DNA of 64,000 bases. It comes from an uncultured Oscillospiraceae bacterium (GTDB lineage Bacteria > Bacillota > Clostridia > Oscillospirales > Oscillospiraceae). The notes beneath the pieces were generated by a model, which did not search any database, was not told the origin of the DNA, and was given only the letters and a program-made list of their open reading frames with translations. Below, one piece after another: positions 34,566 to 51,546 of the stretch. The DNA is taken from NCBI GenBank assembly GCA_934573935.1, contig CAKTMO010000006.1, positions 1-64,000 of the forward strand, written 5' to 3'. The stretch's first letter is position 1, and each line of letters starts with the position of its first letter. Both the position numbers and the translations under genes were made by a program.

Positions 34566-34981
34566 TTATTGATCGAAGCTGGGATTGATATAGTATACGT
34601 TCTTCTGATCCATCCGCTCCTTGGCAAGACGCAGTCCCTCGCCGAAGCGCTGGAAGTGTACGATCTCACGGGCACGCAGGAACTTGATGACGTCGTTCAC
34701 ATCAGGATCGTCACTGAGCCGCAGAATGTTGTCGTAGGTAACACGCGCCTTTTGTTCCGCGGCCAGATCTTCGGTCAGATCGGCGATCAGGTCGCCCTTG
34801 ACTGCCATAGACGCAGCGTTCCAAGGAAAACCGGAAGCCGCCGTGGGGTAGACACTCGCCGTGTGATCCACAAAGTAGGCGTCAAAGCCTGCGGTTTTAA
34901 TGTCATCCTCACTAAGATTCCGCGTCAGCTGGTGCACGATGGTGCCGATCATCTCCAGGTGTCCCAGTTCCTCTGTGCCGA
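34566..34981 (-). CDS. cotJC: cotJC, 3' part (spore coat protein CotJC, manganese catalase family), interrupted
   Basis: This segment encodes the C-terminal 134 residues or so of CotJC: EELGHLEMIGTIVHQLTRNL, then HTASVYPTAASGFPW and FLRAREIVHFQRFGEG, the di-manganese catalase fold. It has no start of its own and begins abruptly at the 14-bp repeat 34968-34981. The missing N-terminal 65 residues lie 16.4 kb away at 51352-51546 on the same strand. Joining the two at the repeat gives an intact 198-codon gene, near the 189 residues of Bacillus CotJC. The half shows no stops or decay, which suggests the whole gene is still used. Confidence 0.93.
34968..34981. repeat. Left attachment core of the element (attL)
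   Basis: TTCCTCTGTGCCGA occurs here and at 51352-51365 in direct orientation. The flanks differ beyond these 14 bases (CAG before and CTGG after here; GACGC before and TATC after there). Confidence 0.9.
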
Positions 34982-35181
34982 CTGGGGAAACGAAAATGCC
35001 ACAAATCGCGGAAAGCCTTGTGCCACAAGGCTTTCAAGGCGCGGAAACCGGCGAAAATGCGAATGTGCGAAAGGCAGGGTGGCTCTGTTCCTTTGCAACC
35101 GATTACCGGCACCGTGGGGTAAGCAAGCACTACCGCGTCGATGTGATGGCCGTACTTCCAGAGGGAGGTGAGGCAGAGTGA
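34982..35181 (+). other. Detached 3' tail of the recombinase reading frame
   Basis: An open frame from the left repeat (codon ACT at 34981) runs 66 codons to TGA at 35179-35181 (GETKMPQIAESLV ... RVDVMAVLPEGGEAE) and lacks a start. It is in register with the recombinase frame at the right repeat, so in the excised circle it would be the C-terminal end of the recombinase (535 + 66 residues). Its stop overlaps the parB GTG, with AGGGAGGTGAGG before it. In the integrated state this segment is probably untranslated leader for parB. Confidence 0.8.
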
Positions 35182-36011
35182 AGGAGTACATTCAGCAGCT
35201 TCCACCGGACAAGCTGGTGTCGTTCCAGAACCATCCCTATCAGGTGCGGGAGGATGCCGCCCTGTCAGAACTGATGGAGAGTATCCGCACACACGGTGTA
35301 TTATCGCCGTTGCTGGCGCGGCCAAAAGGGGAGAGCTACGAGTTGGTCAGTGGACACCGGCGGCGTCTGGCGGCGCAGAAGCTGGGGCTGAAGACTGTTC
35401 CTGTGTTGGTACGGGAGATGACCGACGATGAAGCGGTGATCCTGATGGTGGACAGCAATCTCCAGCGTGAAAATCTGCTGCCCAGCGAGAAGGCATTTGC
35501 CTACAAAATGAAACTGGAGGCGATGAAGCATCAGGGAAAAGCAACTTCGTGCAAAGTCTGCACGAAGTCAAGAACTGATGAACTTATCGGACAACGCGAA
35601 TCCGTTAGCGCAAGGACTATTCAGAACTACATCCGTTTGACCAACCTCGTCCCGCCGCTGCTGCAAATGGTAGACGATGGCCGCATCGCCTTTTCGCCTG
35701 CCGTAGAGCTGTCTTATCTCACCAAAGAGGAGCAGGCAGAGCTGTGGGACTTGATCGGGCAGGAGGATGCCACGCCATCGCTGTCACAGGCCATCCGCAT
35801 GAAGCAGTTGTCCCGTGAAGCTAAGCTGACGCCGGAGGTGCTGTACGCGATCCTCACCGAAGAAAAGCCCAACCAGAAGGAGCAGGTGCGGATTAAAACG
35901 GAGTCCCTGCGAAAGTATTTTCCGCGCAATTACTCCGCCCAGCAAATGGAACGGGAAATTCTCAAGCTGCTGGAGACCCGCTACAGGACGAAGAACAGGG
36001 GAGAGCGGTGA
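35178..36011 (+). CDS. ParB/RepB/Spo0J-family partition protein
   Basis: The 277-residue product has the ParB N-terminal domain: LVSFQNHPYQVREDAALSELMESIRTHGVLSPLLARP, then YELVSGHRRRLAAQKLGL, the CTP/arginine motif region of ParB, followed by ADDEAVILMVDSNLQREN-like sequence (MTDDEAVILMVDSNLQREN) and an HTH near 140-165 (SARTIQNYIRLTNLVPPLL). A cysteine-containing loop (ATSCKVCTKSRTDE) is typical of versions on mobile elements. No parA is nearby. The GTG start overlaps the stop of the preceding frame (GTGA). Confidence 0.9.
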   Translation: MKEYIQQLPPDKLVSFQNHPYQVREDAALSELMESIRTHGVLSPLLARPKGESYELVSGHRRRLAAQKLGLKTVPVLVREMTDDEAVILMVDSNLQRENLLPSEKAFAYKMKLEAMKHQGKATSCKVCTKSRTDELIGQRESVSARTIQNYIRLTNLVPPLLQMVDDGRIAFSPAVELSYLTKEEQAELWDLIGQEDATPSLSQAIRMKQLSREAKLTPEVLYAILTEEKPNQKEQVRIKTESLRKYFPRNYSAQQMEREILKLLETRYRTKNRGER

Positions 36012-36070
36012 TTTTGTACACTGGTGTTATACGGACAGGCCCTGTAAAATAGCCGCAGGAGGTGTATCAC

Positions 36071-36340
36071 ATGAGCGAAAGATTACAGGAACCCTTACCG
36101 AAGACTATCTGCCGGAATGAAATTTATTATGAGCTGCGCGGTGAGCAGTATTACCCATGTCTGCTGGTGCCGCCGGAGCCGGACGCCAGCGAGGAAGATC
36201 AACTGCGCTTCATCATCCGGCAGATGGCGGAAGCACAGGGCATTGACGAGGACTTGAAAGCGCGTGATCCTATGGCGTGGATCGGCGCGATGAACAACAT
36301 CAAAAGCGCGGCTCTTGAGATCATGCGGGATATATCATGA
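36071..36340 (+). CDS. TnpV-like transposon-encoded protein
   Basis: The 89-residue product ends in FIIRQMAEAQGIDEDLKARDPMAWIGAMNNIKSAALEI, close in pattern to the C-terminal part of TnpV proteins of Tn4451-like elements (GIDENLKARD, MNN). The first half (MSERLQEPLPKTICRNEIYYELRGEQYYPCL) also follows the TnpV start. The central segment is shorter than usual. Function is unknown. CAGGAGG precedes the ATG; the stop overlaps the next gene. Confidence 0.65.
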   Translation: MSERLQEPLPKTICRNEIYYELRGEQYYPCLLVPPEPDASEEDQLRFIIRQMAEAQGIDEDLKARDPMAWIGAMNNIKSAALEIMRDIS

Positions 36341-36627
36341 GGAACTATCAGTATATGCGGGCGCTTTGGGCGGAGTTCTGCCGCAGCAACGCGTGTCAGG
36401 CACAGCATCATGACCAGCGATACCAGCGCTTGAGCAAACAGCTTCCGGATGCACAGCGTCGGCAGCTTCTGCGTATTGTGGACGCGGCAGACGCACACTG
36501 TGAAGCGGCGTCTTTCGAGGGCTTTGTGGCGGGCTTTTGCCTTGCTGCCGGAATCGCCAGAGAGACGATGCGGGACAGGTACTCTTATGAGGACGCCATC
36601 GAGGCGAGAGGACAGTTTCGCCGGTAA
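36337..36627 (+). CDS. Small element protein, DUF6809-like
   Basis: The 96-residue product is helical, with LLRIVDAADAHCEAASFEGFVAGFCLAAGIARETM resembling the F-x-x-GF-x-LA-x-GI pattern of small proteins common on clostridial mobile elements. The assignment to DUF6809 is tentative. It overlaps the TnpV-like gene by 4 bp (ATGA), so they are coupled. No function is known. Confidence 0.5.
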   Translation: MRNYQYMRALWAEFCRSNACQAQHHDQRYQRLSKQLPDAQRRQLLRIVDAADAHCEAASFEGFVAGFCLAAGIARETMRDRYSYEDAIEARGQFRR

Positions 36628-36702
36628 AAATCAATACCACATCAGCAAGCGGAGACAGGTCAAGTGGCCTGTCTCCGCTATTTTTTTGCAGAGGAGCATA
36701 AA

Positions 36703-37050
36703 ATGGACTATTTTTACAAATCAGAATCCGAGACCTATGCGTTTTACCGCGTTCCCAAGCTGTTATTTACGCATATCTTCTATAAAGACTTGCCATGTGA
36801 AGCAAAGCTGCTTTACGGTATGTTAGTGGACAGAATGACGCTTTCCGACCGGAATTTTTGGAGAGATCGCGAGGGAAACACCTACATCTATTTCAGCATA
36901 GAGACGATCATGCGAAGCCTCAACTGCGCCCACGGTAAGGCGGAGAAGCTTCTGGCTTCGCTGGAAGATTATGGTCTGGTAGATCGCAGGCGGCAGGGCC
37001 TTGGAAAGCCTTCCCGATTATATCCGCAGCCATTTGCCCGTGAGATGTGA
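36703..37050 (+). CDS. Replication initiator RepA N-terminal domain protein, short form
   Basis: The 115-residue product matches the RepA_N domain: MDYFYKSESETYAFYRVPKLLFT, LPCEAKLLYGMLVDRMTLSDRN, YIYFSIETIMRSLNC and KAEKLLASLEDYGLVDRRRQGLGKPSRLYP. Full RepA_N initiators are usually well over 200 residues; here the C-terminal specificity domain is missing, so it may be a remnant or may act only as a regulator. GAGGAG precedes the ATG at 36703. A plasmid-like ancestry of the element is suggested. Confidence 0.85.
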   Translation: MDYFYKSESETYAFYRVPKLLFTHIFYKDLPCEAKLLYGMLVDRMTLSDRNFWRDREGNTYIYFSIETIMRSLNCAHGKAEKLLASLEDYGLVDRRRQGLGKPSRLYPQPFAREM

Positions 37051-37182
37051 TCCTGAATTTCGGTGTTCTGATACGCCGATATTCAGTGTTGCCGGATCGC
37101 CGGTTTTCGGCGTTCAATAAGACAGAGAGAATAAAACTGATTGGTTAAGAAACTGAATGTGACAGGAAAGGACGGAATGATT

Positions 37183-37350
37183 ATGAAAGAGAATAAGATC
37201 AGAAGCAAACAAGTCAACCTTCGATTGACAGAAGCGGAATACAGGCGTTTGGACGAGGCGGCACAGGCCAGCGGATTAGGGCGGTCAGCCTATCTTCGGA
37301 TGGTACTGTACGCTTCGTGGCTTCGTGAGGGAGCCAAAAAAGCAAAATAG
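37183..37350 (+). CDS. Ribbon-helix-helix protein, MobC/plasmid-type
   Basis: The 55-residue product has a ribbon-helix-helix: IRSKQVNLRLTEAEYRRLDEAAQASGLGRSAYLRMVLYA, with the beta strand KQVNLRL. Such proteins serve as relaxosome accessory factors (MobC-like) or antitoxin/plasmid regulators. Two ATGs (37177, 37183) are possible; 37183 is about 10 bases from AGGAAAGGA. No relaxase gene follows, although this is where one would be expected in related mobilisable elements. Confidence 0.7.
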   Translation: MKENKIRSKQVNLRLTEAEYRRLDEAAQASGLGRSAYLRMVLYASWLREGAKKAK

Positions 37351-37410
37351 AAATTGCGTGTTTTGCACGATCAGCCGCCATGAAGGCGCAGAAGCTTCCG
37401 CTGTAGGGGG

Positions 37411-37450
37411 AAACAGATTCCGTATTGCGAGTGCGATACGGAATCTGTTT
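37411..37450. repeat. 15-bp perfect inverted repeat, candidate oriT/origin hairpin
   Basis: Arms AAACAGATTCCGTAT and ATACGGAATCTGTTT flank a 10-base loop TGCGAGTGCG. No T-run follows on either strand, so it is probably not a terminator. Confidence 0.75.
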
Positions 37451-37531
37451 CCGCAAGCATAGCATTTTGACAGCAAAATGCGCTTGTTAAGGGGACAGCC
37501 CCCCTAATACCCCCGCTATCGCAATATCAAT

Positions 37532-37572
37532 AATTTGCACCTAAACGGGATTTTCCCGTCCAGGTGCAAATT
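37532..37572. repeat. Nested inverted repeat
   Basis: Outer arms AATTTGCACCT/AGGTGCAAATT enclose inner arms ACGGGA/TCCCGT with a TTT loop and two mismatched bases on each side. Confidence 0.75.
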
Positions 37573-37707: not shown

Positions 37708-37734
37708 GCTATTTTTGAGATAAGGAGAATGTCC

Positions 37735-37947
37735 ATGGAATATATGTCCATCACACAGGCAGCAGAGAAGTGGGGCATCACCCAACGCCGTATTCAAGTT
37801 CTCTGCAAAGAGGAACGCATCCCCGGTGCGATCCGCATCGGCTACGTCTGGGCCATCCCCGCAGACGCCGAGAAGCCCAAGGACGCAAGAGTGCGAAGCG
37901 GGAAATATGTGAAGGCAGCTCTGAACACTGCCAGCAAGGAAAAGTGA
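37735..37947 (+). CDS. Helix-turn-helix domain protein (AlpA/excisionase-like)
   Basis: The 70-residue product is a MerR-like winged helix: MEYMSITQAAEKWGITQRRIQVLCKEERIPGAIRIGYVWAIPADAEKP, the pattern of DNA-binding excisionase or antitoxin-like proteins that precede Fic genes. AAGGAG lies 7 bases before the ATG at 37735; the ATG at 37729 is too close to it. The fic gene starts 9 bp downstream. It may regulate fic or serve as its partner. Confidence 0.8.
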   Translation: MEYMSITQAAEKWGITQRRIQVLCKEERIPGAIRIGYVWAIPADAEKPKDARVRSGKYVKAALNTASKEK

Positions 37948-37956
37948 GGGAAAATT

Positions 37957-38562
37957 ATGGCTCTTGAGAATAAATTAGGCATCACCAGCTCCGCCGAGCT
38001 TGCCCGCGAGGAGGAGCGTATCAGTAAAAAGAAAGCAGTTGAGCTTTTTGAAAGCGGTACACTGGACAAGCTGGAGCCGGGGAAGTTTGCCTCTCTGCAA
38101 GCGATCCACAAGGCGCTGTTTGAGGATATCTACGACTTTGCGGGGCAGCTTCGCACGGTGAATCTGGCAAAGGGGAATTTTCGCTTTGCGCCGCTGATCT
38201 ATCTGGAGGCGGCGCTGGCCAACATCGACAAAATGCCGCAGTCCACCTATGACGAGATCATCGAGAAGTATGTGGAGATGAATGTCGCCCATCCATTCCG
38301 CGAGGGCAATGGCCGCAGCACACGCATCTGGCTTGACCTGATGCTGAAAAGTGGCATCGGTCAGGTGGTGGACTGGAGTAAGGTAGACAAGGAGGACTAT
38401 CTCCTTGCCATGGAGCGCAGCCCTATTAAAGACGTGGAGATCAAGGTGTTGTTGAAAGACGCCCTTACCAGCGACGTGAACAGCCGCGAGATCTTTATGA
38501 AGGGCATCGACCACAGCTATTATTACGAGGGATATACGACATTTAAGGCGGAAGAATTGTAA
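37957..38562 (+). CDS. Fic family protein
   Basis: The 201-residue product carries the complete Fic active-site motif [12 protein letters not shown] (about residues 109-120) and the preceding [19 protein letters not shown] beta-hairpin. Fic enzymes transfer AMP or other phosphoryl groups to target hydroxyls and serve as toxins or regulators. No clear S/T-x-x-x-E-G/N inhibitory helix was found, so self-inhibition is uncertain. It lies 41 bp before cas3 on the same strand, between a promoter and the cas operon. Confidence 0.9.
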
Positions 38563-38603
38563 GTCATTTCAAGGAGTGAAGTGAATCGTGCGTAGAAGGG
38601 GTG

Positions 38604-40781
38604 ATGGTTTTGCAGTACTATGCACATGTTCGGGAAAGTGCCAATGACAATAAGAAATATCAGACGGTTGCCCAGCACTTGACGGGTACGGCTGAGCTTT
38701 GCCGCGGTTTTGCGGCGGCATTTGGGGCGGACGCTGACGGGGAACTGGCAGGATTGGCCCACGACATCGGTAAATGCACAGAAGAGTTTCAAAACCGTCT
38801 GCTGAATGACGGCCCCATTGTTGACCACGCCACGGCGGGCGCGATGGCCTGTGCCGTGCGGGGAAGCCGTTATGTTTCCGCCTGCGTGGCAGGACATCAC
38901 GGCGGCCTGCCGGATTTTGGCAACATGCGGACAGCCCGGAAAGATGACGGGACGTTCTATGGACGGCTACTGAAAGGACGCGACGAACAGTGCCTGGGGC
39001 GCTGCGGTGACAGCGGCGTAACATTACCGCCGCCGACGGTCTCGGCAGCGCAGAAGCTGACTCCTCTGCAAGCCTCGTTTTGGATGCGAATGCTCTATTC
39101 CTGTCTGGTGGATGCCGACTTTCTGGATACGGAGCAGTTCATGAACGGTGAACGCGGTCGGGGCGGATACGATGATATCCCTACGCTATTAGCACGGCTG
39201 CAGGCGTATATCGAACCATGGCAGCAGCCCAAGACAGAGCTGAATCAGCTGCGCTGTGAAATCTTGAATACTTGTATAAGAGCGAGCAGTAAACCAAAAG
39301 GCATTTACACGCTGACAGTCCCAACCGGCGGAGGAAAAACGGTGACGTCGCTGGCCTTTGCGCTGCGCCACGCGGTGGAACACGGGATGCGGCGGGTAAT
39401 TTATGTGATTCCGTATACCTCTATCATCGACCAGAACGCCCAGGTGTTCCGGGATATTCTGGGAAGCGGCAATGTGCTGGAGCACCATTCCGGTGTGCAG
39501 TTCGACCTCTTCGACGGCGCACCGGCGGAGGATGTCCGGAAAGCGTTGGCCACGGAGAATTGGGACATGCCGGTGGTGGTCACCACGGCAGTACAGCTTT
39601 TTGAGTCCATGTATGCCGCTCGCTCCTCCCGGTGCCGTAAGCTGCACAATCTGGCCAATAGCGTCATTATCTTCGACGAAGCGCAGATGCTGCCGCTGCC
39701 GCATCTGCGGCCCTGTGTGGCGGCCATGGCTTCACTGGCGGAGCAATTTCATTCCACGGTGGTACTATGTACCGCAACGCAGCCGTCACTGGACGACCTG
39801 CTGCATACCTATGCGCCAGACCGTCCTGTAACAGAACTCTGCCCGCAGACGGCTGCACTGTATGACCGCTTCCGCCGCGTGACCTTCCGGCAGGTTGGAA
39901 CGCTGACCGATGAGGCGCTGGCGGAGCATCTGGGCGGGCAGCGGCAAGTCCTCTGCATCGTCAACAGCCGTAAGGCGGCCCAAAGCCTATATGCGCTTCT
40001 GCCGCCGGAGGGCAGCTACCACCTGTCCACCCTGATGATCCCGGCCCAGCGTCAGGCACTGCTTGTTGAGATCAGAGAACGACTGAGACGGGACGAACCG
40101 TGCCGGGTGGTGTCAACCTCGCTGATCGAGGCGGGTGTCGATGTGGATTTTCCTGCCGTGTACCGGGAACTGGCGGGGCTGGATTCCGTCATGCAGGCGG
40201 CGGGCCGCTGCAACCGTGAAGGAAAGCGTCCTGCGGACGAGAGCGTTGTCACAATCTTTGAGCGGACGGAGCTGCCGCCGCTGCTGTTCCAAACCGCCAT
40301 CGGTGCGGCCAGAGAAGCGCTGGAAGAAGATCGTGAGCCTGCTGCGCCTGAGACGATGGCACGCTATTTTCACAGTCTGCGCGGTCTGACCGGCGACGCG
40401 CTGGATAAGCAGGGCGTTATCAAGGCATTTACGCAGGGCATCGAGGGCTGTGAATTTCCGTTCCGGACGGTGGCGGAGACATTCCATCTCATCGACCAGA
40501 ATACATACACCGTCTACATTCCCTATGGCGAGGGTGCGACCTTGCTCCGGCAGTTGCAGGACGGCGAGTGCTCCAAGGGGCTGTACCGTAAGCTGGGCCG
40601 CTATGCCGTCTCCGTATATGATAAGCACTTTCAGGCGCTGCATCATGCAGGCGCATTGCTGACGGCGCGGGAGGTTCCCGCACTGGACAGCGACAGCGCG
40701 ATATTGACAGATTTGACGCTGTACAGCGAGACCATGGGCCTGTCTCTGGAGCCGGAGACTGGTAAGGCGGAGTTTATCTGA
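38604..40781 (+). CDS. cas3: CRISPR-associated nuclease-helicase Cas3 (type I-C)
   Basis: The 725-residue effector has an N-terminal HD nuclease domain (LAGLAHDIGK near 48-57, then DHATAGA and AGHHGG) and an SF2 helicase: Walker A TVPTGGGKTVTS, DEAQ in IIFDEAQMLPLP, motif III TATQPS and motif VI QAAGRCNREG. Cas3 unwinds and degrades DNA marked by Cascade. The ATG at 38604 is used; a GTG lies directly before it. It is the first cas gene and may be cotranscribed with fic. Confidence 0.96.
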   Translation: MVLQYYAHVRESANDNKKYQTVAQHLTGTAELCRGFAAAFGADADGELAGLAHDIGKCTEEFQNRLLNDGPIVDHATAGAMACAVRGSRYVSACVAGHHGGLPDFGNMRTARKDDGTFYGRLLKGRDEQCLGRCGDSGVTLPPPTVSAAQKLTPLQASFWMRMLYSCLVDADFLDTEQFMNGERGRGGYDDIPTLLARLQAYIEPWQQPKTELNQLRCEILNTCIRASSKPKGIYTLTVPTGGGKTVTSLAFALRHAVEHGMRRVIYVIPYTSIIDQNAQVFRDILGSGNVLEHHSGVQFDLFDGAPAEDVRKALATENWDMPVVVTTAVQLFESMYAARSSRCRKLHNLANSVIIFDEAQMLPLPHLRPCVAAMASLAEQFHSTVVLCTATQPSLDDLLHTYAPDRPVTELCPQTAALYDRFRRVTFRQVGTLTDEALAEHLGGQRQVLCIVNSRKAAQSLYALLPPEGSYHLSTLMIPAQRQALLVEIRERLRRDEPCRVVSTSLIEAGVDVDFPAVYRELAGLDSVMQAAGRCNREGKRPADESVVTIFERTELPPLLFQTAIGAAREALEEDREPAAPETMARYFHSLRGLTGDALDKQGVIKAFTQGIEGCEFPFRTVAETFHLIDQNTYTVYIPYGEGATLLRQLQDGECSKGLYRKLGRYAVSVYDKHFQALHHAGALLTAREVPALDSDSAILTDLTLYSETMGLSLEPETGKAEFI

Positions 40782-40848
40782 TGTCCGTTTTATTGGACAA
40801 CATACCATGTAAGCTATATTTTATAAAGAAAGAGGGGGGAGTGATCTT

Positions 40849-41511
40849 ATGGCGATACAAGTGGAAGTGTGGGGCGATTATGCGCTATTCACGCGGCCGG
40901 AGATGAAAACAGAGCGCGTCAGCTATGATGTCATGACGCCGTCGGCGGCCCGAGGGCTGCTGGAAAGCATCTACTGGCATCCTGGCATGAAATGGCGCAT
41001 TGACCGAATTCATGTGTGCAGTCCCATTCGCTTCACCAATATTCGCCGCAATGAGGTGAAGGACACTATCAGTGCCCGCAAGGTAAAAACCGTCATGGAA
41101 AAAGGAAAAGGAGAACTGTATCTTGCTACGCCGGAGAGCATCCAGCAGCGGGCGGCCATGGTGCTGCGGAACGTACATTATGTGATCGATGCCCACTTTG
41201 ACCTGACGGAGAGCGCGGCGCCCGGCGACAACGCAGGAAAGTTTCAGGACATCATCAAGCGCCGTTTGGAACGTGGCCAGTGTTACAGCGCGCCCTATTT
41301 TGGCACGCGGGAGTTTCCAGCCCATTTTCGCCGCTGCACAGAACTGCCGCCCTGCCCGGATGAGTTGGAGGGCGTTCGTGACCTTGGCTGGATGCTGTGG
41401 GATATGGACTACAGCGATGCCCAGAACATCACGCCTCGGTTTTTCCGGGCCAGCCTGACGGATGGCGTGCTGACCGTGCCGCCGTGGGACAGCAAGGAGG
41501 TGAGGGGATGA
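40849..41511 (+). CDS. cas5c: Type I-C Cas5c (Cas5d), crRNA-processing subunit
   Basis: In type I-C systems Cas5 replaces Cas6 and cleaves the repeat hairpin of pre-crRNA, then stays on the 5' handle. The 220-residue product begins MAIQVEVWGDYALFTRPEMK and shows YDVMTPSAARGLLESIYWHPGMKWRIDRIHV, the Cas5d signature. GGGGGGAG precedes the start. The gap after cas3 contains a short TGTCC/GGACA hairpin and a possible weak promoter. Its stop overlaps cas8c (ATGA). Confidence 0.96.
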   Translation: MAIQVEVWGDYALFTRPEMKTERVSYDVMTPSAARGLLESIYWHPGMKWRIDRIHVCSPIRFTNIRRNEVKDTISARKVKTVMEKGKGELYLATPESIQQRAAMVLRNVHYVIDAHFDLTESAAPGDNAGKFQDIIKRRLERGQCYSAPYFGTREFPAHFRRCTELPPCPDELEGVRDLGWMLWDMDYSDAQNITPRFFRASLTDGVLTVPPWDSKEVRG

Positions 41512-43247: not shown

Positions 43248-44130
43248 GCCCATTAAGAACCGGTATGAATTTGTGGTATTTTTCGATGTGGAAAACGGCA
43301 ATCCCAACGGCGACCCCGACGCGGGCAACATGCCCCGCGTAGACCCGGAGACCGGCTACGGTCTGGTGACGGACGTCTGCCTGAAGCGAAAGATCCGCAA
43401 CTATGTGGAGATGGCGAAGGAAGGGAAGGAGGGCTACCGCATCTACATCAAGGACGGCGTACCTCTGAACAGCAGCGACAAGGAGGCCTGCGCCTATGTG
43501 GGCGTGGACGCGGATAAGCTGAAGGACGCCAAGAAAAAGGACGAGCATCTGGACGAAAAGCTGCGGGACTTCATGTGCCGGAATTTCTACGATATCCGTA
43601 CCTTCGGCGCGGTAATGACTACCTTTGTCAAGGGTGCGCTGAACTGCGGACAGGTGCGCGGGCCGGTGCAGCTGGGCTTTGCCCGCAGCGTTGACCCGAT
43701 CATGCCTCAGGAGGTCACTATCACCCGCGTAGCCATCACCACGGAGGCGGACGCGGAGAAGAAAGGCACCGAAATGGGCCGCAAGTACATCGTTCCCTAT
43801 GGCCTGTACCGGGCGGAGGGCTATGTCTCCGCCAATCTGGCCCGCAAGACAACCGGCTTCTCTGAGGATGACCTGAACCTGCTGTGGACGGCCATCCTGA
43901 ATATGTTTGAAAATGACCACTCCGCCGCCCGCGGCAAGATGGCCGTGCGTGAGCTGATCATATTCAGGCACGACTCTGAACTGGGCTGCGCTCCGGCCCA
44001 TAAGCTGTTTGATCTGGTGAAGGCCGCTCACAAGGACGGCGTCACCGTCCCCAGAAGCTACGGCGACTACACCGTTACGGTGGACGAAGCAGCTTTGCCC
44101 GTTGGCGTTACCTGCACGCGGCTGGGGTGA
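43240..44130 (+). CDS. cas7c: Type I-C Cascade backbone subunit Cas7c (Csd2)
   Basis: The 296-residue Csd2 protein forms the crRNA-covering filament. It begins with the Cas7 start NRYEFVVFFDVENGNPNGDPDAGNMPRVD and contains TDVCLKRKIRNYV, DIRTFGAVM and GQVRGPVQLGFARSVDPI. The ATG at 43240 is 9 bases after AAGGAGG; an ATG at 43234 is too close. It overlaps cas8c, and cas4 begins at the overlapping GTGA. Confidence 0.97.
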   Translation: MSEPIKNRYEFVVFFDVENGNPNGDPDAGNMPRVDPETGYGLVTDVCLKRKIRNYVEMAKEGKEGYRIYIKDGVPLNSSDKEACAYVGVDADKLKDAKKKDEHLDEKLRDFMCRNFYDIRTFGAVMTTFVKGALNCGQVRGPVQLGFARSVDPIMPQEVTITRVAITTEADAEKKGTEMGRKYIVPYGLYRAEGYVSANLARKTTGFSEDDLNLLWTAILNMFENDHSAARGKMAVRELIIFRHDSELGCAPAHKLFDLVKAAHKDGVTVPRSYGDYTVTVDEAALPVGVTCTRLG

Positions 44131-44789
44131 TCTATCCGGAGGAGAGCTTTCTCCAGCTCTCCGGCTTGCAGCACTTCAAATTCTGCCGCAGGCAATGGGC
44201 ACTGATCCATATCGAAAATCAATGGGCGGAGAATTACCGCACCACGGATGGTGCGATCCTCCACGAGCGGGCTCACGATAAGGACTTCACCGAGAGTCGC
44301 GGCGACCTGCTCATTACACGGGACATGCGGATATTCTCCCCGACTTTGGGCGTTTCCGGCGCCTGCGATGTGCTAGAATTCCACCGCGGCGCCGAGGGTA
44401 TTCCGCTAAAAGGCAGAGATGGCCTGTGGCAGCCTTACCCGGTGGAGTACAAGCGCGGCAAGCCCAAGCAGGACACCACGGACGCCTTGCAGCTCTGCGG
44501 ACAGGCCATGTGTCTGGAGGAGATGCTCTGCTGCGATATCCCGACCGGCGCGCTGTACTACGGCGAGACGCGCCGCCGTACAGAGGTCGAATTCATACCA
44601 GAGCTGCGGCAGGAGGTTAAGACGCTTCTTGAGGAAATGCATACTCTGTATGAACGTGGCTGGACGCCGAAGGTCAAACCGACAAAGGCCTGCAACGCCT
44701 GCTCTCTCAAGGAGCTGTGTCTGCCAAAGCTGATGCGGAAACGATCCGTCACAGACTATCTGCGGGAGCATCTGGAGGTGACGCCATGA
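44127..44789 (+). CDS. cas4: CRISPR-associated exonuclease Cas4
   Basis: The 220-residue RecB-family nuclease sets PAM specificity and trims prespacers with Cas1-Cas2. An N-terminal Cys (FCRR, about 20) and the C-terminal CNACSLKELC supply the Fe-S cluster. The nuclease core has HERAH, GACDVLEF and PVEYKRGKPK. The start is GTG overlapping the cas7c stop; the stop overlaps cas1 (ATGA). Confidence 0.96.
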   Translation: MIYPEESFLQLSGLQHFKFCRRQWALIHIENQWAENYRTTDGAILHERAHDKDFTESRGDLLITRDMRIFSPTLGVSGACDVLEFHRGAEGIPLKGRDGLWQPYPVEYKRGKPKQDTTDALQLCGQAMCLEEMLCCDIPTGALYYGETRRRTEVEFIPELRQEVKTLLEEMHTLYERGWTPKVKPTKACNACSLKELCLPKLMRKRSVTDYLREHLEVTP

Positions 44790-45817
44790 GACAGCTTTTG
44801 AATACCTTGTTCGTCACATCGGAGGATGTGTACCTTTCACTTGATGGCGAGAATGTGGTGGCTAACCGGGGCGGGGAGGCCGTTGCCCGCTATCCGCTCC
44901 ATACGCTGCAAAGCATTGTGTCCTTTTCTTACTCCGGCGCTTCACCGGCACTGATGGGCACCTGTGCCAAGCGGGAGATCGGGCTGGCTTTCTGTACGCC
45001 GAGAGGACGCTTCCTCGCCCGTGTCTCCGGACAAATGCAGGGAAATGTACTGCTGCGCAGGACACAGTACCGGGTCGCCGACGATCCCTCCGGAAGCTGC
45101 CGCGTGGCGCGAATGATGATTTTGGGCAAGGTCTATAACGCTCGTTGGAGCGTAGAGCGTACCCGACGGGATCATGCCATGCGGATCGACAGTGAGCGCT
45201 TTGCGGCGGTGTCACAGCAGCTACAGGGCTTATTGCCGCAGATCACGGCGGAAACCTCGCTCGACAGTCTCCGGGGCTTGGAGGGTGCCGGTGCAACTGC
45301 TTATTTCAGTGTACTGGATGACATGATTTTGCAGAGGAAGGATACCTTCTTTTTCCGGGAGCGCAGCCGCCGTCCACCGCTGGATGCCTTCAACGCGATA
45401 CTGTCCTTTGCGTACAGCCTACTGGCACACGACTGCGCTTCCGCTTTGGAAAGTGTCGGTCTGGATGCCTATGTAGGATTTCTTCACCGCGACCGTCCGG
45501 GGCGGGAATCCCTTGCGCTGGACTTAATGGAGGAGCTGCGTCCCTGCTTTGCGGATCGTTTTGTGCTGACGATGGTCAATAACCGCGTCATAAAGCCAGA
45601 GGATTTCGATTTCCGGGAGAGTGGTGCTGTATTTTTGACGGATACAGTACGTAAAAGCTTTTTGCAGAAATGGCAGGAGCGCAAAAGGGAAACGATCACT
45701 CATCCGTTTCTGGAGGAGAAGCTTCCTTGGGGGCTGGTTCCTTATGTGCAGAGTCTCTTGTTGGCCAGGTATCTGCGGGGTGATCTGGACGACTATCCGC
45801 CGTTTTTATGGAAGTGA
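44786..45817 (+). CDS. cas1: CRISPR integrase Cas1 (type I-C)
   Basis: The 343-residue integrase has the N-terminal beta domain (MRQLLNTLFVTSEDVYLSLDGENV) and the helical catalytic domain with metal ligands in LEGAGATAYF (Glu), GFLHRDRPGRESLALDLMEELRP (His and Asp). It forms the spacer-insertion complex with Cas2. Both ends overlap or nearly touch neighbours (cas4 by 4 bp, cas2 7 bp after). Confidence 0.97.
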   Translation: MRQLLNTLFVTSEDVYLSLDGENVVANRGGEAVARYPLHTLQSIVSFSYSGASPALMGTCAKREIGLAFCTPRGRFLARVSGQMQGNVLLRRTQYRVADDPSGSCRVARMMILGKVYNARWSVERTRRDHAMRIDSERFAAVSQQLQGLLPQITAETSLDSLRGLEGAGATAYFSVLDDMILQRKDTFFFRERSRRPPLDAFNAILSFAYSLLAHDCASALESVGLDAYVGFLHRDRPGRESLALDLMEELRPCFADRFVLTMVNNRVIKPEDFDFRESGAVFLTDTVRKSFLQKWQERKRETITHPFLEEKLPWGLVPYVQSLLLARYLRGDLDDYPPFLWK

Positions 45818-45824
45818 GGAACCT

Positions 45825-46115
45825 ATGCTGGTATTGATCACCTATGATGTAAATACAGAGGATGCCGCTGGGCGTCGGCGTTTGCGGCAGATAGCCAAGC
45901 AGTGCGTCAACTATGGCCAAAGGGTGCAGAATTCTGTGTTTGAGTGTTTGTTGGACACAGCGCAGTGCCGCAGCCTGCAAAATACACTTTGTAAAATCAT
46001 GGATCCTAAGCGGGATAGTTTGCGGTTTTACTATTTGGGAAAGCAGTACGAAAAGAAGATCGAGCATTTTGGCTGCAAGCAAACGTATCTGCCGGAGGAC
46101 ACACTGATGGTCTAG
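45825..46115 (+). CDS. cas2: CRISPR-associated Cas2 (type I-C)
   Basis: The 96-residue protein has the ferredoxin-like Cas2 fold with MLVLITYDVNTEDAAGRRRLRQIAK and VQNSVFECLLD. It bridges Cas1 dimers during spacer acquisition. GTGAGGA lies before the ATG. It ends the cas operon; the leader and array follow on the same strand. Confidence 0.96.
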   Translation: MLVLITYDVNTEDAAGRRRLRQIAKQCVNYGQRVQNSVFECLLDTAQCRSLQNTLCKIMDPKRDSLRFYYLGKQYEKKIEHFGCKQTYLPEDTLMV

Positions 46116-46286: not shown

Positions 46287-46987
46287 GTCGCACCCCGCAA
46301 GGGGTGCGTGGATTGAAATCCTCACGGCGCAGACTGTTTACCAGCCTGACAAGTCGCACCCCGCAAGGGGTGCGTGGATTGAAATTCTGCTTGACTATTA
46401 AGATGAATGAGCAGCACAAGTCGCACCCCGCAAGGGGTGCGTGGATTGAAATGGTAAAAACGCAACATACTGGTACAGCCCACAGCGTCGCACCCCGCAA
46501 GGGGTGCGTGGATTGAAATTCCCGCACATACAGCGTCGTGGAGGTGTTCCTCGTCGCACCCCGCAAGGGGTGCGTGGATTGAAATATTTCCGCACCGGCA
46601 CCGGTGTCAGCAGCTACACGTCGCACCCCGCAAGGGGTGCGTGGATTGAAATACGCTGAAAAGCGGCGGGGTGGAGATCAGCTCGGGTCGCACCCCGCAA
46701 GGGGTGCGTGGATTGAAATCAAAGTGTTAGCGTCAATCTGAGTAGGCCCACCACGTCGCACCCCGCAAGGGGTGCGTGGATTGAAATAGCAGGTATCTGG
46801 TAAACTGCGGCCCATTAAGCGTCGCACCCCGCAAGGGGTGCGTGGATTGAAATGCCATCGTTACACCTCCTCCGTGTACATCAGCGCCGTCGCACCCCGC
46901 AAGGGGTGCGTGGATTGAAATCAGATATACGCCTGTTCCTTCTGCTGGCTACAGGTCGCGCCCCGCATGGGGCGCAATAGGAAAGGC
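46287..46987 (+). CRISPR. Type I-C CRISPR array, 10 intact repeats plus 1 degenerate, 10 spacers
   Basis: The 33-nt repeat begins GTCGCACCCCGCAAGGGGTG and ends GTGGATTGAAAT. Intact copies start at 46287, 46353, 46420, 46487, 46553, 46620, 46687, 46755, 46821 and 46889 and are identical. An eleventh at 46955 is degenerate (GCGCCCCGCATGGGGCGC core, altered tail), marking the old end. Spacers are 33-35 nt. Each repeat forms a GCACCCC/GGGGTGC stem with a GCAA loop, the Cas5c cleavage hairpin. The array is transcribed from the cas2 side. Confidence 0.98.
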
Positions 46988-47015: not shown

Positions 47016-48152
47016 TTACATATCCAACAAAACCCTCGCCCGTTTCTGTACCTGCTTTTCGATCATCCGCAGGCGCTTTGCGGGCAAGTTATACCGTGGG
47101 TGCTTCTTGAAGCGGAACGTCAGCAGATGCCGCAGTTTTTCCCGCAGTTCCGGCGTCAGAACGCTTTTTGCCGTGCCGAGGAAGTCATCGTATACGCTGG
47201 GAGCCAGCGTTTCGATGTATTCCTCCAGCGCCGCGTCGCTTGTCCAGGCGTCCATACCGGCGAAATTGAACAGCGAATTGCCGTGGTCGAACAGCGGGGC
47301 AGGGGAGACAACGGTATTTGTCTGGTTGTCCACCATCACGCCGAAGTTTCCGAAGTGGCGATCCACATTGCAGATCACAGCGTCGAACACCAGCATTTCG
47401 CGCAGCGCCGCAGTGAACTCCGGGCCGAGACTTTCGTAATACGCCTTAACGGCGTTCATGCCGCCCTTTGTGACAAGATGGCCCACGGGAATGTAGGAAT
47501 ACTCCTTACTGGTGAAAAGCTCGCAGGTGGAGCACAGAACGCCCTTCCAGCAGGAGAGACCATAGGGAATTGCCCGAACGCCCATGGCGGCGGCGATTTG
47601 CGCGGCGTAAAACTCCGAGTACGGCTCAAAGCCTGTGTTGGACGCGCCTTCAGTGCCGCCCTTATAGAGATAGACCTTGCCGCTAATCCGCCGCCAGCAC
47701 TTACGCAGCATTCCGTTTGTTGTAAACTCCGGGCTGGAGAACAGGGATGAGCGCAGACTGCTGCCGTAGCCGGTGAAGGCCAGTTCAGCCAGCACATTGC
47801 TGAAAGGATTATCGTAGAGGTTGACTTTCTCAAAAATATCGCCGTTATCCGCCTGCACGACCCAATAGCAGTCGTTAAGGGATAGACCTTTACAAATATT
47901 GATAATAGACAGAGGACGGTTCAGATTCAAGCCGCATTTTGCCAGCAGATTGTGAACATAGGCGCGGTTCTTGGGAATGGTGCGGCGGCGCAGCCAACGG
48001 CTCAAGCCATCCGGTGTCAGCGTCAGATCCAACGGCAGCAGGCTTCTGCTTTCCTCGTCGATCCAAAGAATCTGAATCTCTGGCTCGCTGGTGTCCGTGG
48101 TGGCGGAAAACTTGAGCAACGGCTTATCAAATTGTTTCAGAAAATACTCCAT
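47016..48152 (-). CDS. HipA-like kinase domain protein
   Basis: The 378-residue product has a HipA/PI3-kinase-like catalytic core: YLYKGG for ATP binding (about 161), the catalytic loop ICNVDRHFGNFGVM (about 260-273) and the metal motif PLFDHGNSL (about 285-293). HipA-family kinases can phosphorylate aminoacyl-tRNA synthetases or other targets and cause growth arrest. No HipB-type antitoxin is adjacent; a DUF6076 gene lies upstream on the same strand. The ATG at 48152 follows GGAAAGGCGG. It has its own extended -10 promoter. Confidence 0.8.
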   Translation of the reverse strand: MEYFLKQFDKPLLKFSATTDTSEPEIQILWIDEESRSLLPLDLTLTPDGLSRWLRRRTIPKNRAYVHNLLAKCGLNLNRPLSIINICKGLSLNDCYWVVQADNGDIFEKVNLYDNPFSNVLAELAFTGYGSSLRSSLFSSPEFTTNGMLRKCWRRISGKVYLYKGGTEGASNTGFEPYSEFYAAQIAAAMGVRAIPYGLSCWKGVLCSTCELFTSKEYSYIPVGHLVTKGGMNAVKAYYESLGPEFTAALREMLVFDAVICNVDRHFGNFGVMVDNQTNTVVSPAPLFDHGNSLFNFAGMDAWTSDAALEEYIETLAPSVYDDFLGTAKSVLTPELREKLRHLLTFRFKKHPRYNLPAKRLRMIEKQVQKRARVLLDM

Positions 48153-48232: not shown

Positions 48233-49192
48233 TTACTTGCGGGGAGGCAGCTCGGTAAGCGCTTTCAGTTGGTTATAGGTCAATTTCCCGTCAACATACA
48301 GGTCACGCACCTGTTCCGTATGGGCCTTCCACTTCTGAAATTCTTCATCCGTGTAGACAGTCGGGGCACGGCGTACCCGCATATCATATGCTTTGATCTG
48401 CTGCCGAATCAGTTTCAAGCCTTTATCGGCGGCAATTTTCTTTTCATGCTTCTCTTTTGCGGCCAGTTCCTTGCAGGTTTTTCCTTTCTTGCTGGAAATG
48501 TGATCGCAGTACCGGGCTTTTGAGGAATAGGGGAGAAAATATCGATGGCAATACTCGCACTTTTGAATCATAACATTCTGCTCAGCCATTTCCAATACTT
48601 CCGTCAAGAAGGCAGCTTCCATATTATCAGAGCCTTCAACTCGTGCGATTCGGACATCTGCTGGTGGCTCATAAACGCGGTCAGCGAAAAGGATGGGGTA
48701 AAATGAGCGGCCATTTACATAGATTTTTCGTTCTATTTTCATCAAATCGGGAAGCCTCAAAAAGAGCGCCGCATTTTGAGGCGACTTACTCATGTAGAGA
48801 CACAAGCGCTGCATTGCACTTTGGCCAGAATCATTTAATAGAAAAACATCGTCTGCGATTTCCCGAAGCCGGTTTTGGGATTCGATCAAAACACTCAGCT
48901 TATCTGCAAGCTCTCGGTAGGGGATGTCAGCATTATGGAGAGAGTAATCCAGAAGATACTCAAAGAAAGTATGGATCGGCGTGAGCTGATCAATTACTTT
49001 CTGTAAGGTTCTATGAATCGTCATTTTCGTCGTCCATTTTTCATCGATAGATAACAGTGCCTTTTGTAATGACACAAAATCCGTGGACAAAAAGGTAATA
49101 AAGGCAGTACCAAGTCGATTTTCCACAGGCTTCCGGTCTGTTTCGATGAATTCTTTCTTCGGTCCAAAACTAAAACAATACAGTGCTCTCAA
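48233..49192 (-). CDS. DUF6076 domain-containing protein
   Basis: The 319-residue product has an unrecognised N-terminal half and a C-terminal zinc-binding segment: KCEYCHRYFLPYSSKARYCD followed by KGKTCKELAAKEKHEKK, the layout of DUF6076 proteins. A basic helical end (RRAPTVYTDEEFQKWK) follows. The start is TTG, 8 bases after AAGGGGG. It is 80 bp upstream of the HipA-like gene on the same strand, and the two may form a defence or toxin module; this is inferred. Confidence 0.65.
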   Translation of the reverse strand: MRALYCFSFGPKKEFIETDRKPVENRLGTAFITFLSTDFVSLQKALLSIDEKWTTKMTIHRTLQKVIDQLTPIHTFFEYLLDYSLHNADIPYRELADKLSVLIESQNRLREIADDVFLLNDSGQSAMQRLCLYMSKSPQNAALFLRLPDLMKIERKIYVNGRSFYPILFADRVYEPPADVRIARVEGSDNMEAAFLTEVLEMAEQNVMIQKCEYCHRYFLPYSSKARYCDHISSKKGKTCKELAAKEKHEKKIAADKGLKLIRQQIKAYDMRVRRAPTVYTDEEFQKWKAHTEQVRDLYVDGKLTYNQLKALTELPPRK

Positions 49193-49513
49193 GGCTTTTA
49201 CCCCCTTGTTCTATTCTATTAAACTTCAAATGTGGAATATTATTCTCAACATAATTACTTTACCACATCTTGCGATTCCCGTCAACGCTTGCTATGCTTT
49301 TAGTGGAAGCGGAAAGTGAAACGGCCGGACTTCCACACAAGTAAATGACCGCCGGGGCATTCCTTTTTCGGGGAAGCAGGCCATAACCGTCTATGACGTG
49401 AGCGTGCCAAGAAGAAGGAAGCGTATCTCTGTCAGGCCGGAGATCGCACTCGGAGAAACGGCAAACAAATTTATCCCGCCACGCGCATAAGTTCTAAGGA
49501 AGGAGGGAGCGGG
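49193..49513. other. Intergenic region between DUF6076 and SHOCT-like genes
   Basis: This 321-bp gap holds the AT-rich start region of the minus-strand DUF6076 gene (about 49205-49265) and then a GC-rich stretch without a plausible start codon and reading frame. No hairpin terminator or RNA gene was recognised. Confidence 0.4.
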
Positions 49514-49681
49514 ATGGCAAGCAAGCCGGAATTATGGGAAAAGCAAGACGATGGCACAGTCAACCGGGAGTTTATGTTGGCGTATGAGCGATCCGTTCTG
49601 CTCTCCTTGCAGGAACAGGGCATTCTCACCCAGCAGCAATATGAAGAATGTGTCAGAATGCTGGAACGCAAAGGAATGTAA
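49514..49681 (+). CDS. SHOCT-like small protein preceding recombinase
   Basis: The 55-residue product contains EFMLAYERSVLLSLQEQGILTQQQYEECVRML, a short-helix pattern like SHOCT domains seen in small genes directly before serine recombinases on clostridial elements. GAAGGAGGGAGCGGG lies before the ATG. It is 78 bp before the recombinase and probably cotranscribed; it may act as an accessory (directionality) factor, which is inference only. Confidence 0.7.
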   Translation: MASKPELWEKQDDGTVNREFMLAYERSVLLSLQEQGILTQQQYEECVRMLERKGM

Positions 49682-49759
49682 AGTAATTAAACCTAACATA
49701 TGTCACACATTCGTATACAGCAGCTTTTTGCGCTATACTTGAGGAAAGGAGGCGATTGT

Positions 49760-51397
49760 ATGTTACAAGTAGCGGCATATTGCCGCGTGTCCACGGACAA
49801 GGAGGATCAAGCCAACTCGTTCGAGGCCCAGCAGCGGTATTTCCGTGAGCGCATCGAGCGTGAACCGGACTGGGAGCTGCAAGGTATCTATGCCGATGAG
49901 GGCATCTCCGGCACTTCTACCAAAAAGCGAATGGAGTTCAACCGCATGATCCACGCAGCGGAGATGGGAAAGATCGATCTGATCGTGACCAAGGAGGTCA
50001 GCCGTTTTGCCCGCAATACAGTGGACGCTTTGAAAATCACCCGTGAGCTTCGGCGGCGGGACGTGGGCGTTCTGTTCCTCAACGACAACATCGACACACG
50101 GGATCACGACAGCGAGTTTCGATTGTCCATCATGAGCTCCGTGGCACAGGAGGAGAGCCGCAAGACCTCCGACCGCTCCAAGTGGGGACAGACCCGCAGT
50201 ATGGAGCAGGGCGTGGTATTCGGCGGCTCGCTGCTGGGTTACGATGTGCAGGGCGGCAAGATGACCATCAATCCGGAGGGCGCGGAGATCGTTCGTCTGA
50301 TCTTCCGCAAGTATCTGGATGAGCGTAAGGGCTGCGGCACGATTGCCCGTGAGCTGCGGGAAGCGGGTATTCTCAGCAGCCGGGGAAAATGCAGTTGGTC
50401 GTCGGCCACCGTGACGAAGATTCTGAAAAATGAAAAGTATTGCGGCGATCTGGTGCAGAAAAAGACCTACACGCCGGATTTCCTGACCCACGAAAAGCAC
50501 TACAACCACGGTCAGGAGCCGAGGGTGGAGATCAAGGATCACCACGAACCCATCATCGACCGCGAAACGTGGCAGGCTGTCCAGCAGGAGCTGCGCCGCC
50601 GCAATCGAGCGCAGGGCAGCGGCGGCCACGGCAACCGCTATCCGCTGTCCGGCAAGATACGCTGCGGCGAGTGCGGCAAGAGCTTTGTCCGCCGCACTAA
50701 GACCCGCAAGGCTGGCGATTCCTACCGCCGCTGGTGCTGCTTCACCGCCACCAACGAGGGCCTGCGCCGCACAGACGGAGCAGGGAACTTTTTGGGATGC
50801 AGCGTAGGCCGCCAGATACGGGAGGATGTGGCTATGGACATCCTGCGGCGTTCTGTGGACGCTGTGACGCTGGATAAGAAGGCTATCATTTCCGACCTTA
50901 CCCGTATCGTGGAGCGGGTGCTATCCAACGGCGGAGATGACGGTCAGCAGGAACTGCGCCGCTTGGAGCTGGAATTGGAGAAGCTGCAAAGCCGCAGTGA
51001 CGCGATCCTAGACCGCTTCCTTGACCAGACCCTCAGCAAATCGGATTTTCAACGGGCCAAAGCCCGCTGTGAAGCGGAGATCAGCCGGACACAGGAAAAG
51101 CTGGAAGCCATCCGCCAGCGGCAGAAGCTGGATACCGACACCAGAACGCTCAAGCCGGACATTCGCGCCGCCATTACCAGTATCGTCACCGGCCAGACAG
51201 CGGACGACAGCTTTTATGGCCGTCTGCTGCACCACATGACCGTGTATCAGGACGGCAGGGTAGAGGTGGCATTGAATCTGCTGCCCGCCAAATGGACGTA
51301 TGTGCTGGACGGTCTGGAGAAGTACCGCGCCAAAATTAGGGCGCATGACGCTTCCTCTGTGCCGATATCGGTCAGCAGGCCCTTTAATTCCGGATAG
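49760..51397 (+). CDS. Large serine recombinase of the element
   Basis: The 545-residue protein has an N-terminal resolvase domain with nucleophile Ser11 in AAYCRVSTDKEDQ, EGISGTSTKKRMEFNRM and VAQEESRKTSDRSKWGQ; a recombinase domain; a zinc ribbon (RCGECGKSF); and a coiled coil (about 395-465). The ATG at 49760 follows GAAAGGAGG. The right attachment repeat (51352-51365) lies inside its 3' end, so its last 10 codons (ISVSRPFNSG) come from antisense cotJC. In the circular form it would have 601 residues. SpoIVCA of skin is of the same family. Confidence 0.95.
   Translation: MLQVAAYCRVSTDKEDQANSFEAQQRYFRERIEREPDWELQGIYADEGISGTSTKKRMEFNRMIHAAEMGKIDLIVTKEVSRFARNTVDALKITRELRRRDVGVLFLNDNIDTRDHDSEFRLSIMSSVAQEESRKTSDRSKWGQTRSMEQGVVFGGSLLGYDVQGGKMTINPEGAEIVRLIFRKYLDERKGCGTIARELREAGILSSRGKCSWSSATVTKILKNEKYCGDLVQKKTYTPDFLTHEKHYNHGQEPRVEIKDHHEPIIDRETWQAVQQELRRRNRAQGSGGHGNRYPLSGKIRCGECGKSFVRRTKTRKAGDSYRRWCCFTATNEGLRRTDGAGNFLGCSVGRQIREDVAMDILRRSVDAVTLDKKAIISDLTRIVERVLSNGGDDGQQELRRLELELEKLQSRSDAILDRFLDQTLSKSDFQRAKARCEAEISRTQEKLEAIRQRQKLDTDTRTLKPDIRAAITSIVTGQTADDSFYGRLLHHMTVYQDGRVEVALNLLPAKWTYVLDGLEKYRAKIRAHDASSVPISVSRPFNSG
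51352..51365. repeat. Right attachment core of the element (attR)
   Basis: TTCCTCTGTGCCGA, the second copy of the 14-bp direct repeat, inside both the recombinase 3' end and the cotJC frame on the other strand. Confidence 0.9.
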
Positions 51398-51546
51398 GGC
51401 ATGGAGTAGCGCTGGCTCAAGTAACGCAGCGATGCGCCGAGCTCGCCGTCAGGGCCACCGTATTGGCTGATGATCAGGGCGGCCAACTTGGGGTTGGTGT
51501 TTTTGATTTTTACGGGATATTGCAGCTTTTTCTCATAGACAAACAT
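51352..51546 (-). CDS. cotJC: cotJC, 5' part (N-terminal 65 codons), interrupted
   Basis: The segment encodes MFVYEKKLQYPVKIKNTNPK through GLLTDIGTEE, the N-terminal part of the CotJC manganese-catalase-like coat protein. After the repeat the frame runs into element DNA for 34 foreign residues and stops near 51247. The remaining codons lie at 34566-34981. The ATG at 51546 overlaps the stop of the CotJA-CotJB fusion by one base (TAATG), so the operon is intact up to the insertion. The break is next to the conserved E-x-x-H metal-ligand motif (EELGH). Confidence 0.93.

Follow-up and report, generated by a model that had tools for sequence, protein, structure and literature searches.

This study concerns a window of 64,000 nucleotides (the whole stretch of DNA analysed, positions 1 to 64,000 of contig CAKTMO010000006.1, assembly GCA_934573935.1) from an uncultured Oscillospiraceae bacterium, probably akin to the gut genus Oscillibacter, in which the spore coat gene cotJC is interrupted by an island of 16.4 kb. 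We consider it probable that the large serine recombinase (LSR) encoded on this island excises it in the sporulating mother cell, which would rebuild cotJC. Excision in the mother cell is likely because about one third of the sampled relatives that bear cotJC have it broken at a small number of fixed sites. The first-pass annotation had likened the arrangement to the skin element. This design is supported by the recurrence of the interruption, by the selection acting on the gene pieces, by a candidate recombination directionality factor (RDF) with its promoter box, by the splits of sigK and spoIIID and by the unsplit gpr, whereas the excision itself is a prediction.

The cotJC gene of the window and its junctions

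In the window, cotJC is present as two pieces on the minus strand. Between them, flanked by two 14-bp repeats, lie 16,384 bp, and the break falls in codon 62 (coordinates in Table 1). The repeat TTCCTCTGTGCCGA has exactly two copies in the window and only one further match at two mismatches or fewer (37802-37815). The junction of the 5' piece with the 3' piece gives a frame of 198 codons plus a stop, free of internal stops, and this joined gene aligns with 20/20 uninterrupted cotJC genes of the same family, 15 of them without any gap. A frame similar to CotJA/CotJB lies directly upstream of the 5' piece, and CotJB is annotated at the corresponding place in Pusillibacter faecalis. The LSR abuts the right repeat and its final codons are the antisense strand of cotJC. 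The first-pass annotation is thereby borne out on the element of about 16.4 kb between 14-bp repeats, the in-frame reconstitution, the coupling of the 5' half to CotJA-CotJB and the LSR at the right repeat. Its view of the 14-bp repeat as the junction holds in part: the repeat is exact in both copies, but when the junctions of many genomes are aligned the crossover core is reduced to approximately GG in codon 62, so that part of the identity of the repeat is unneeded. Chance is ruled out mainly by recurrence, with related LSRs at the same codon in many genomes, and less by the repeat itself.

Recurrence of the interruption across genomes

The window island is a member of a large family of islands that interrupt cotJC. 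Searching GTDB genomes for the LSR yielded 158 confirmed loci, and in the best 80 of these a cotJC piece was found 75 times (the exceptions are L049, L056, L069, L079 and L080), with a break mostly near codon 62. A sample of 150 genomes was then taken from the family of Oscillibacter valericigenes An907, with a centre (G006) and one other genome (G001) whose split status was known beforehand. A cotJC match is present in 134 of them: 85 have an uninterrupted gene (ending early, at codon 176-183, in five), 48 have pieces only and one (G087) has only a distant paralog; the other 16 have no match. The pieces cover the whole gene in 41 of the 48 pieces-only genomes, the remaining seven being drafts that miss a piece, and five of the 48 also carry a full-length paralog (36-41%). 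In a class-wide sample, 74 of 108 genomes have a cotJC match, of which about 23 are split without an uninterrupted orthologue (the centre being included and two unclear cases left out). The family and class counts were made by eye from tables. In the loci fetched for the junction analysis, which represent a subset of the breaks, 114 LSR frames are located no more than 400 bp from a cotJC piece. The duplicates L061 (=G095) and L067 (=G150) were excluded from the later pair lists, and L211 (G245) and G231 were given no class.

Break sites and genes in several pieces

The breaks cluster at codons ~30 (site A), 62 (site B), ~135 (site C) and ~170-178 (site D) of cotJC, site D being the least certain. 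A distant second class of LSR cuts the gene near codon 64-65 (L111, L118 and L123). CotJC aligns with the manganese catalases 1jku and 6j42 (phmmer), metal-ligand motifs included. The CotJC motifs aligned with them are GGPDGE (30-35), GTEELGH (62-68), AAEQ (134-137) and REIVH (165-169), on the manganese-ligand residue numbers that we take to apply in catalases. Since the breaks lie near these motifs, the LSRs seem to have become established at those codons of cotJC that vary least.

Several genomes have cotJC in three pieces, which in G139 are found on one contig with two LSRs. In Anaeromassilibacillus sp. An172 the gene is in four pieces on one contig, over 48 kb (L202-L206). Excision of the last interval of An172 would take housekeeping genes out of the mother-cell chromosome. 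The genomes G044, G067, G103 and G076 have extra 3'-end fragments of cotJC (codons ~161-198), which suggest that site-D elements possibly carry a replacement gene end. Four islands of ~3-4 kb (L113, L114, L120 and L064) contain little beyond an LSR and a pyrimidine-nucleoside-phosphorylase-like gene (by eye). In Pusillibacter faecalis MM59 (L200), the split cotJC and its LSR are on a 504-kb replicon labelled as a plasmid, where radA is also present.

Selection on the pieces and transfer of the islands

Related islands have passed between species. LSRs are often far closer to each other than their hosts are, which indicates that the islands move; the islands of L071 and L078 are nearly identical, while their flanking genes have a synonymous divergence (dS) of ~0.4-0.5. 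Clean halves, taken alone as an argument for excision, were dropped, many LSRs being much younger than their hosts. The selection test was thus limited to pairs whose syntenic islands have diverged roughly as much as their hosts. In such co-inherited islands the 3' piece, severed from the operon promoter and from the start codon, is under purifying selection. Nonsynonymous against synonymous changes are 0/266 against 26/79 in G076/G170, 10/326 against 54/100 in L059/L060, 13/274 against 47/89 in L059/L063, 13/331 against 47/98 in G150/G315, 16/296 against 52/88 in G108/G183 (where the LSRs are only 52% identical) and 2/402 against 26/117 in G036/G040 (p < 1e-15 in each case). The counts are simple NG86-type counts, some of the compared frames extend over a few codons of the island, and pairs of the same clade are not independent. 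Selection is weaker in the Anaerocolumna pair L046/L051, in which a second cotJC copy is present (30/288 against 34/75). No true stop was found in the 142 scored core codons of the cotJC pieces, two flagged stop codons (G020 and G031) being alignment overruns into island sequence. The interior of the co-inherited islands has a dS of about 1. The strong purifying selection on their 3' piece and the lack of true stops both argue against a dead cotJC whose halves would be clean only because the insertion is recent.

Small protein and candidate control switch

In 67 of 111 loci, the gene just before the LSR encodes a homologue of a 55-aa protein of the window. The window protein matches no Pfam or NCBIfam family, and its structural model is a two-helix hairpin (mean pLDDT 81, pTM 0.56). 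The sigma-E/K-type -10 box CATANNNT is located 18-52 bp before the start of the small open reading frame (ORF) in 26 of 47 non-redundant loci, compared with 35 of 629 other genes of those loci (p 9e-18). Within 70 bp upstream it occurs in 28 of the 47 loci (shuffled sequences: mean 3.5, maximum 12/47). The matches among control genes include cotJA- and cwlD-like genes (by eye). In many loci a -35-like CA(A/T)A is present 16 nt upstream of the box. Before the LSR, sigma-A-like promoters were detected in 14 of 82 loci, against 1.4 expected. At other break sites the small proteins are unrelated: site C gave three members from seven loci searched, all with the box and two of them identical, and site A gave five members, two with the box. 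These came from seeded searches, whereas comparing all small ORFs of sites A, C and B2 with each other had revealed no families.

The 55-aa protein, encoded just before the LSR, is a likely candidate for the directionality factor. Excision is probably timed by the mother-cell-type promoter of its gene. The LSR would probably be made in growing cells, because some relatives have sigma-A-like promoters before it. The forespore would keep the island, so that its loss in the mother cell would cost nothing and cotJC would constitute a safe harbour. This control switch is predicted from sequence, with a layout similar to those of the Clostridioides difficile skin and of SPbeta.

Predicted reciprocal split of the recombinase gene

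In the predicted circular form, the LSR frame extends 48-72 codons beyond the attachment site in 20 of 27 junction pairs, several of them close relatives; two other pairs extend by 24 and 32 codons, and five are without such a frame. The tail is 66 codons long in the window and ends in a GTGA overlap with parB, and the tails of the Ruminococcus group have a common closing motif of the type DKxxRxxFxVxVYA. In the integrated form, ~15 codons of antisense cotJC take the place of the tail. The circle tail shows weak to moderate selection (pairwise w between 0.05 and 2, with a diverged tail in L122), so the claim of a tail rests on its open length and on the shared motif. Insertion would truncate the recombinase tail as well as split cotJC, and the frame of the circle would meet parB.

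Other sporulation genes

Other genes were surveyed in the 49 genomes of the family sample without an uninterrupted cotJC. The mother-cell gene spoIVA was found in 47 of them, compared with 6 of the 16 genomes without a cotJC match; none of the 47 has a true spoIVA split, and thus not every mother-cell gene is targeted. The gene spoIIID was found in 45 of the 49. In G059, G066, G079, G135 and G139 it is broken between SKSTVH and KDLSERL, and an LSR lies next to the 3' piece (in G135 the pieces are on two contigs). G170 has pieces of the same kind on two contigs, where no LSR was seen. At the spoIIID splits of L221, L222, L223, L224 and L229 the LSR is of another subfamily, and the interval of L224 (G079) contains genes resembling an F1Fo ATP synthase operon (by eye).

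Complementary sigK pieces broken near codon 115 are present in at least 11 of the 49 genomes, in five of them on one contig and in order. No sigK match reaches the curated cut-off of the family in any genome, the B. subtilis control included. The five sigK stretches fetched (L235-L239) all contain an LSR, which abuts a piece in four. Four members of a small-protein family of ~58 aa were found in these five stretches. Each has a CATANNNT box close by, counted in one case from an internal start. Other genomes have sigK fragments that start near codon 60. The forespore gene gpr, found in 45 genomes, is split in none of them; the difference from gpr has p 6e-4 for sigK and p 0.056 for spoIIID. Apparent splits that fall at the end of a contig were left uncounted (spoIVA in G065, G150 and G056; spoIIID in G113 and G115). 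PF08281 was a poor choice as a sporulation marker and was unused.

Excision and alternative explanations

Several observations weigh against excision in the mother cell. Neither a joined nor a circular junction was found in the IMG/VR, phage and plasmid records examined, where all cotJC pieces are integrated. One of these records (MT839280.1, L198), filed as 'Bacteriophage sp.', is actually a bacterial chromosomal stretch with an integrated junction. A contig-end test for mixed assembly forms was null (5/108 against 1.95 expected), and searches for recombinases that carry the circle tail found none. The 3' piece of the window may still be translated by itself, an internal ATG (128 codons) being present. 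Concerning the promoters, the test of CATANNNT, a -10 element alone, was chosen post hoc from viewing those upstream sequences, and the box is missing in 19 of the 47 loci. The two-part patterns before the small ORF are barely above chance for sigma-E (3 against 1.5 expected) and sigma-K (5 against 1.8 expected) in 67 loci, and no sigma-E/K-type promoter lies directly before the LSR in any of 82 loci. The pieces of cotJC are ~157 kb apart in G218 and inverted in G135. The last interval of An172 holds core genes (for example priA- and gmk-like frames, by eye) and is therefore not a plain mobile island. The LSR frames of L059, L060 and L063 are only 292-310 aa long. These shortened frames, in co-inherited islands, are still open and constrained.

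Other points against excision concern the dispensability of the gene. The first-pass annotation had held that another intact cotJC would make the interrupted one dispensable. In LSR-bearing relatives the result is mixed: none of 40 genomes (L001-L040) has a close uninterrupted cotJC, two of them having a full-length paralog (36-38%), and 6 of 34 further genomes have a second intact cotJC (61-71%; G295, G298, G300, G304, G310 and G321), four of the six being Anaerocolumna. In C. difficile the CotJC paralogs are apparently partly redundant, according to the portion of the literature consulted. The LSR dS is 0.02 in G024/G026 and 0.00 in L071/L078, against 0.63 and 0.46 for cotJC, respectively; where islands postdate the divergence of their hosts, the lack of decay may reflect recency.

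The young LSRs and the redundancy in C. difficile would both fit simple insertional loss, in which LSRs target conserved codons of a dispensable gene, cotJC is dead and the halves are clean through recency. The best cotJC matches of the family sample (G163 and G064, 92-93% identity) are moreover uninterrupted, as expected from a recent insertion in the window. We nevertheless regard insertional loss as unlikely in view of the selection on co-inherited 3' pieces, of the LSR islands that split spoIIID and sigK in genomes retaining spoIVA while gpr is intact, and of the mother-cell-type boxes upstream of the small genes. Even less credible is a non-developmental excision, in which an ordinary mobilisable element would leave randomly or on stress and a subpopulation with a rebuilt cotJC would supply the function. 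The RepA_N, ParB, NikA-like and LSR genes belong to mobile elements, the sigma-A-like promoters before LSRs fit such an element, and both forms of yin in yabG were seen at all time points in the part of PMC10747680 consulted; the CATANNNT boxes before the small ORF and the choice of targets (sigK, spoIIID beside an LSR, never gpr) argue against it. Excision in the sporulating mother cell is therefore preferred.

With somewhat less confidence, we favour a broader view in which gut Clostridia edit the mother-cell chromosome on a large scale. The genes cotJC (at ~4 sites, in the codons of its metal-binding motifs), spoIIID and sigK would be kept in 2-4 pieces by independent islands, each with an LSR and an unrelated small RDF under a mother-cell promoter. 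In the cotJC family, LSR and cotJC would interrupt each other, each being completed when the other leaves, and genes of a terminal cell would serve as harmless harbours for the spread of cargo (CRISPR, restriction and metabolic genes). So far, spore formers are known to rearrange genes during development in only a few genes and strains. In the present samples cotJC is in pieces in about one third of the carriers, sometimes through several islands, and some of these genomes also have splits in two regulators that act in the same cell. If excision is confirmed, programmed genome editing in the mother cell would be routine in gut Clostridia, the presence of defence cargo inside sporulation genes without cost would be explained, and tests of sporulation based on gene presence in metagenome-assembled genomes would be less reliable. 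The pairs of recombinase and small protein constitute a set open to direct testing.

Comparison with known elements

The cotJC island is most likely a variant of the sporulation gene-intervening elements (skin, SPbeta, vfbin, vrin, gin and yin), with excision in the mother cell. As in these elements, the halves of a sporulation gene are in frame, and the island has its own LSR and matching attachment repeats with a GG core. We take cotJ to be expressed in the mother cell.

According to the part of PMC5025042 consulted, the C. difficile skin splits sigK, its LSR CD1231 is expressed from a sigma-A promoter and the small acidic RDF CD1234 is under sigma-E. The cotJC island likewise splits a gene by an LSR element and encodes a small acidic protein, and sigK itself is split in some genomes here. 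In contrast to this skin, the target is the gene of a coat enzyme, the cargo includes CRISPR-Cas, ParB and RepA_N, the RDF role is predicted and the attachment site is inside the LSR frame.

In B. subtilis, SPbeta interrupts spsM, a spore-surface gene rebuilt in the mother cell by SprA and SprB. The RDF has 58 aa; its promoter combines a perfect sigma-E/K -10 with an imperfect -35, and transcription begins 20 nt ahead of the start codon (PMC4191935, in part). The cotJC island resembles SPbeta by its spore-surface target, by the layout of the small candidate RDF and by an LSR that matches YokA, the SPbeta recombinase among its relatives in the PDB. Unlike SPbeta, an active prophage, it shows no phage structural family among the window proteins scanned (a subset of the ORFs).

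The element gin, in gerE of B. cereus, is described in the consulted part of PMC5595907 as a non-phage island with an LSR and a tiny RDF (GirC/GirX) that rebuilds a mother-cell gene. The cotJC island is also a non-phage island with an LSR and a small candidate RDF in a sporulation gene; gin differs by its Bacillus host, its three recombinases and its target. In yabG of Clostridium botulinum, yin is a sporulation-gene element whose excised form was seen and which was reported as unique to one strain (PMC10747680, in part). The cotJC islands share with yin a location inside a sporulation gene, but their target is common to many genera.

An attachment site inside the recombinase gene has an analogue outside the spore formers. 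In SSV-type archaeal viruses, attP is inside the integrase gene and insertion splits the integrase, a tyrosine enzyme. The enzyme here is a serine recombinase, and the exit of SSV-type elements is not known to rebuild a host gene.

No island in cotJC or spoIIID was found among the open PMC titles and abstract openings listed, and papers beyond these may report one. The term 'cotJ' does not occur in the main text of PMC4191935, PMC5595907 and PMC11536998, nor any word beginning with 'cot' in PMC10747680.

Contents of the island

The features of the island and of its cotJ flanks are listed in Table 1. The type I-C CRISPR-Cas system comprises cas3-cas5-cas8c-cas7-cas4-cas1-cas2 and an array. The RepA_N, ParB and NikA-like genes, together with near-identical LSRs or islands in diverged hosts, correspond to an integrative mobilisable element. 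No relaxase family was detected in a general family scan of ten window proteins, a scan not aimed at relaxases.

Table 1. Coordinates in the window of the cotJC pieces, the attachment repeats and the genes of the island.
Feature	Position	Strand	Basis
cotJC 3' piece	34566..34981	-	codons ~61-198 + stop; aligns to Mn catalases
left repeat (attL)	34968..34981	+	core GG, cotJC codon 62, from junction alignment
66-codon tail continuing the LSR frame in the predicted circle	34982..35181	+	sequence; stop overlaps ParB start (GTGA)
ParB-like protein	35178..36011	+	PF02195 3.8e-19, HTH_ParB 2.6e-6
TnpV-like protein	36062..36340	+	PF14198 4.8e-12
RepA_N replication-initiator-like protein	36664..37050	+	PF06970 6.9e-22
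NikA-like ribbon-helix-helix mobilisation protein	37141..37350	+	PF21983 1e-8
small HTH_17-like protein	37729..37947	+	PF12728 5.7e-5, under curated cut-off
Fic-domain protein	37957..38562	+	PF02661 2.3e-13; PADLOC PDC-S04 5.3e-103
complete type I-C cas operon (cas3, cas5c, cas8c, cas7c, cas4, cas1, cas2)	38601..46115	+	best PADLOC matches E 6e-42 to 9e-225
CRISPR array, 10 repeats of 33 bp	46287..46921	+	array detection
HipA-like protein	47016..48149	-	weak PF07804 5.3e-4, under cut-off; PDC-M03A 5.2e-15
DUF6076 protein	48233..49192	-	PF19553 4.8e-13
predicted sigma-E/K-type promoter (CAAATTT, 13 nt, CATAAGTT)	49466..49493	+	-35 only approximate
55-aa acidic protein (pI 4.8), candidate RDF	49514..49681	+	homologues upstream of LSRs
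LSR	49760..51397	+	PF00239, PF07508, PF13408; stop inside cotJC flank
right repeat (attR)	51352..51365	+	repeat match; junction alignment
cotJC 5' piece	51352..51546	-	codons 1-65
CotJA/CotJB-like frame, directly upstream of cotJC	51546..52103	-	named by eye
CATATACT, possible cotJ operon -10 box	52150..52157	-	pattern match only

Outside the island, positions 16834-30238 of the window contain a cluster resembling selenium metabolism (selD-like, YedE-like and yqeB-like genes) together with feoB, all named by eye.

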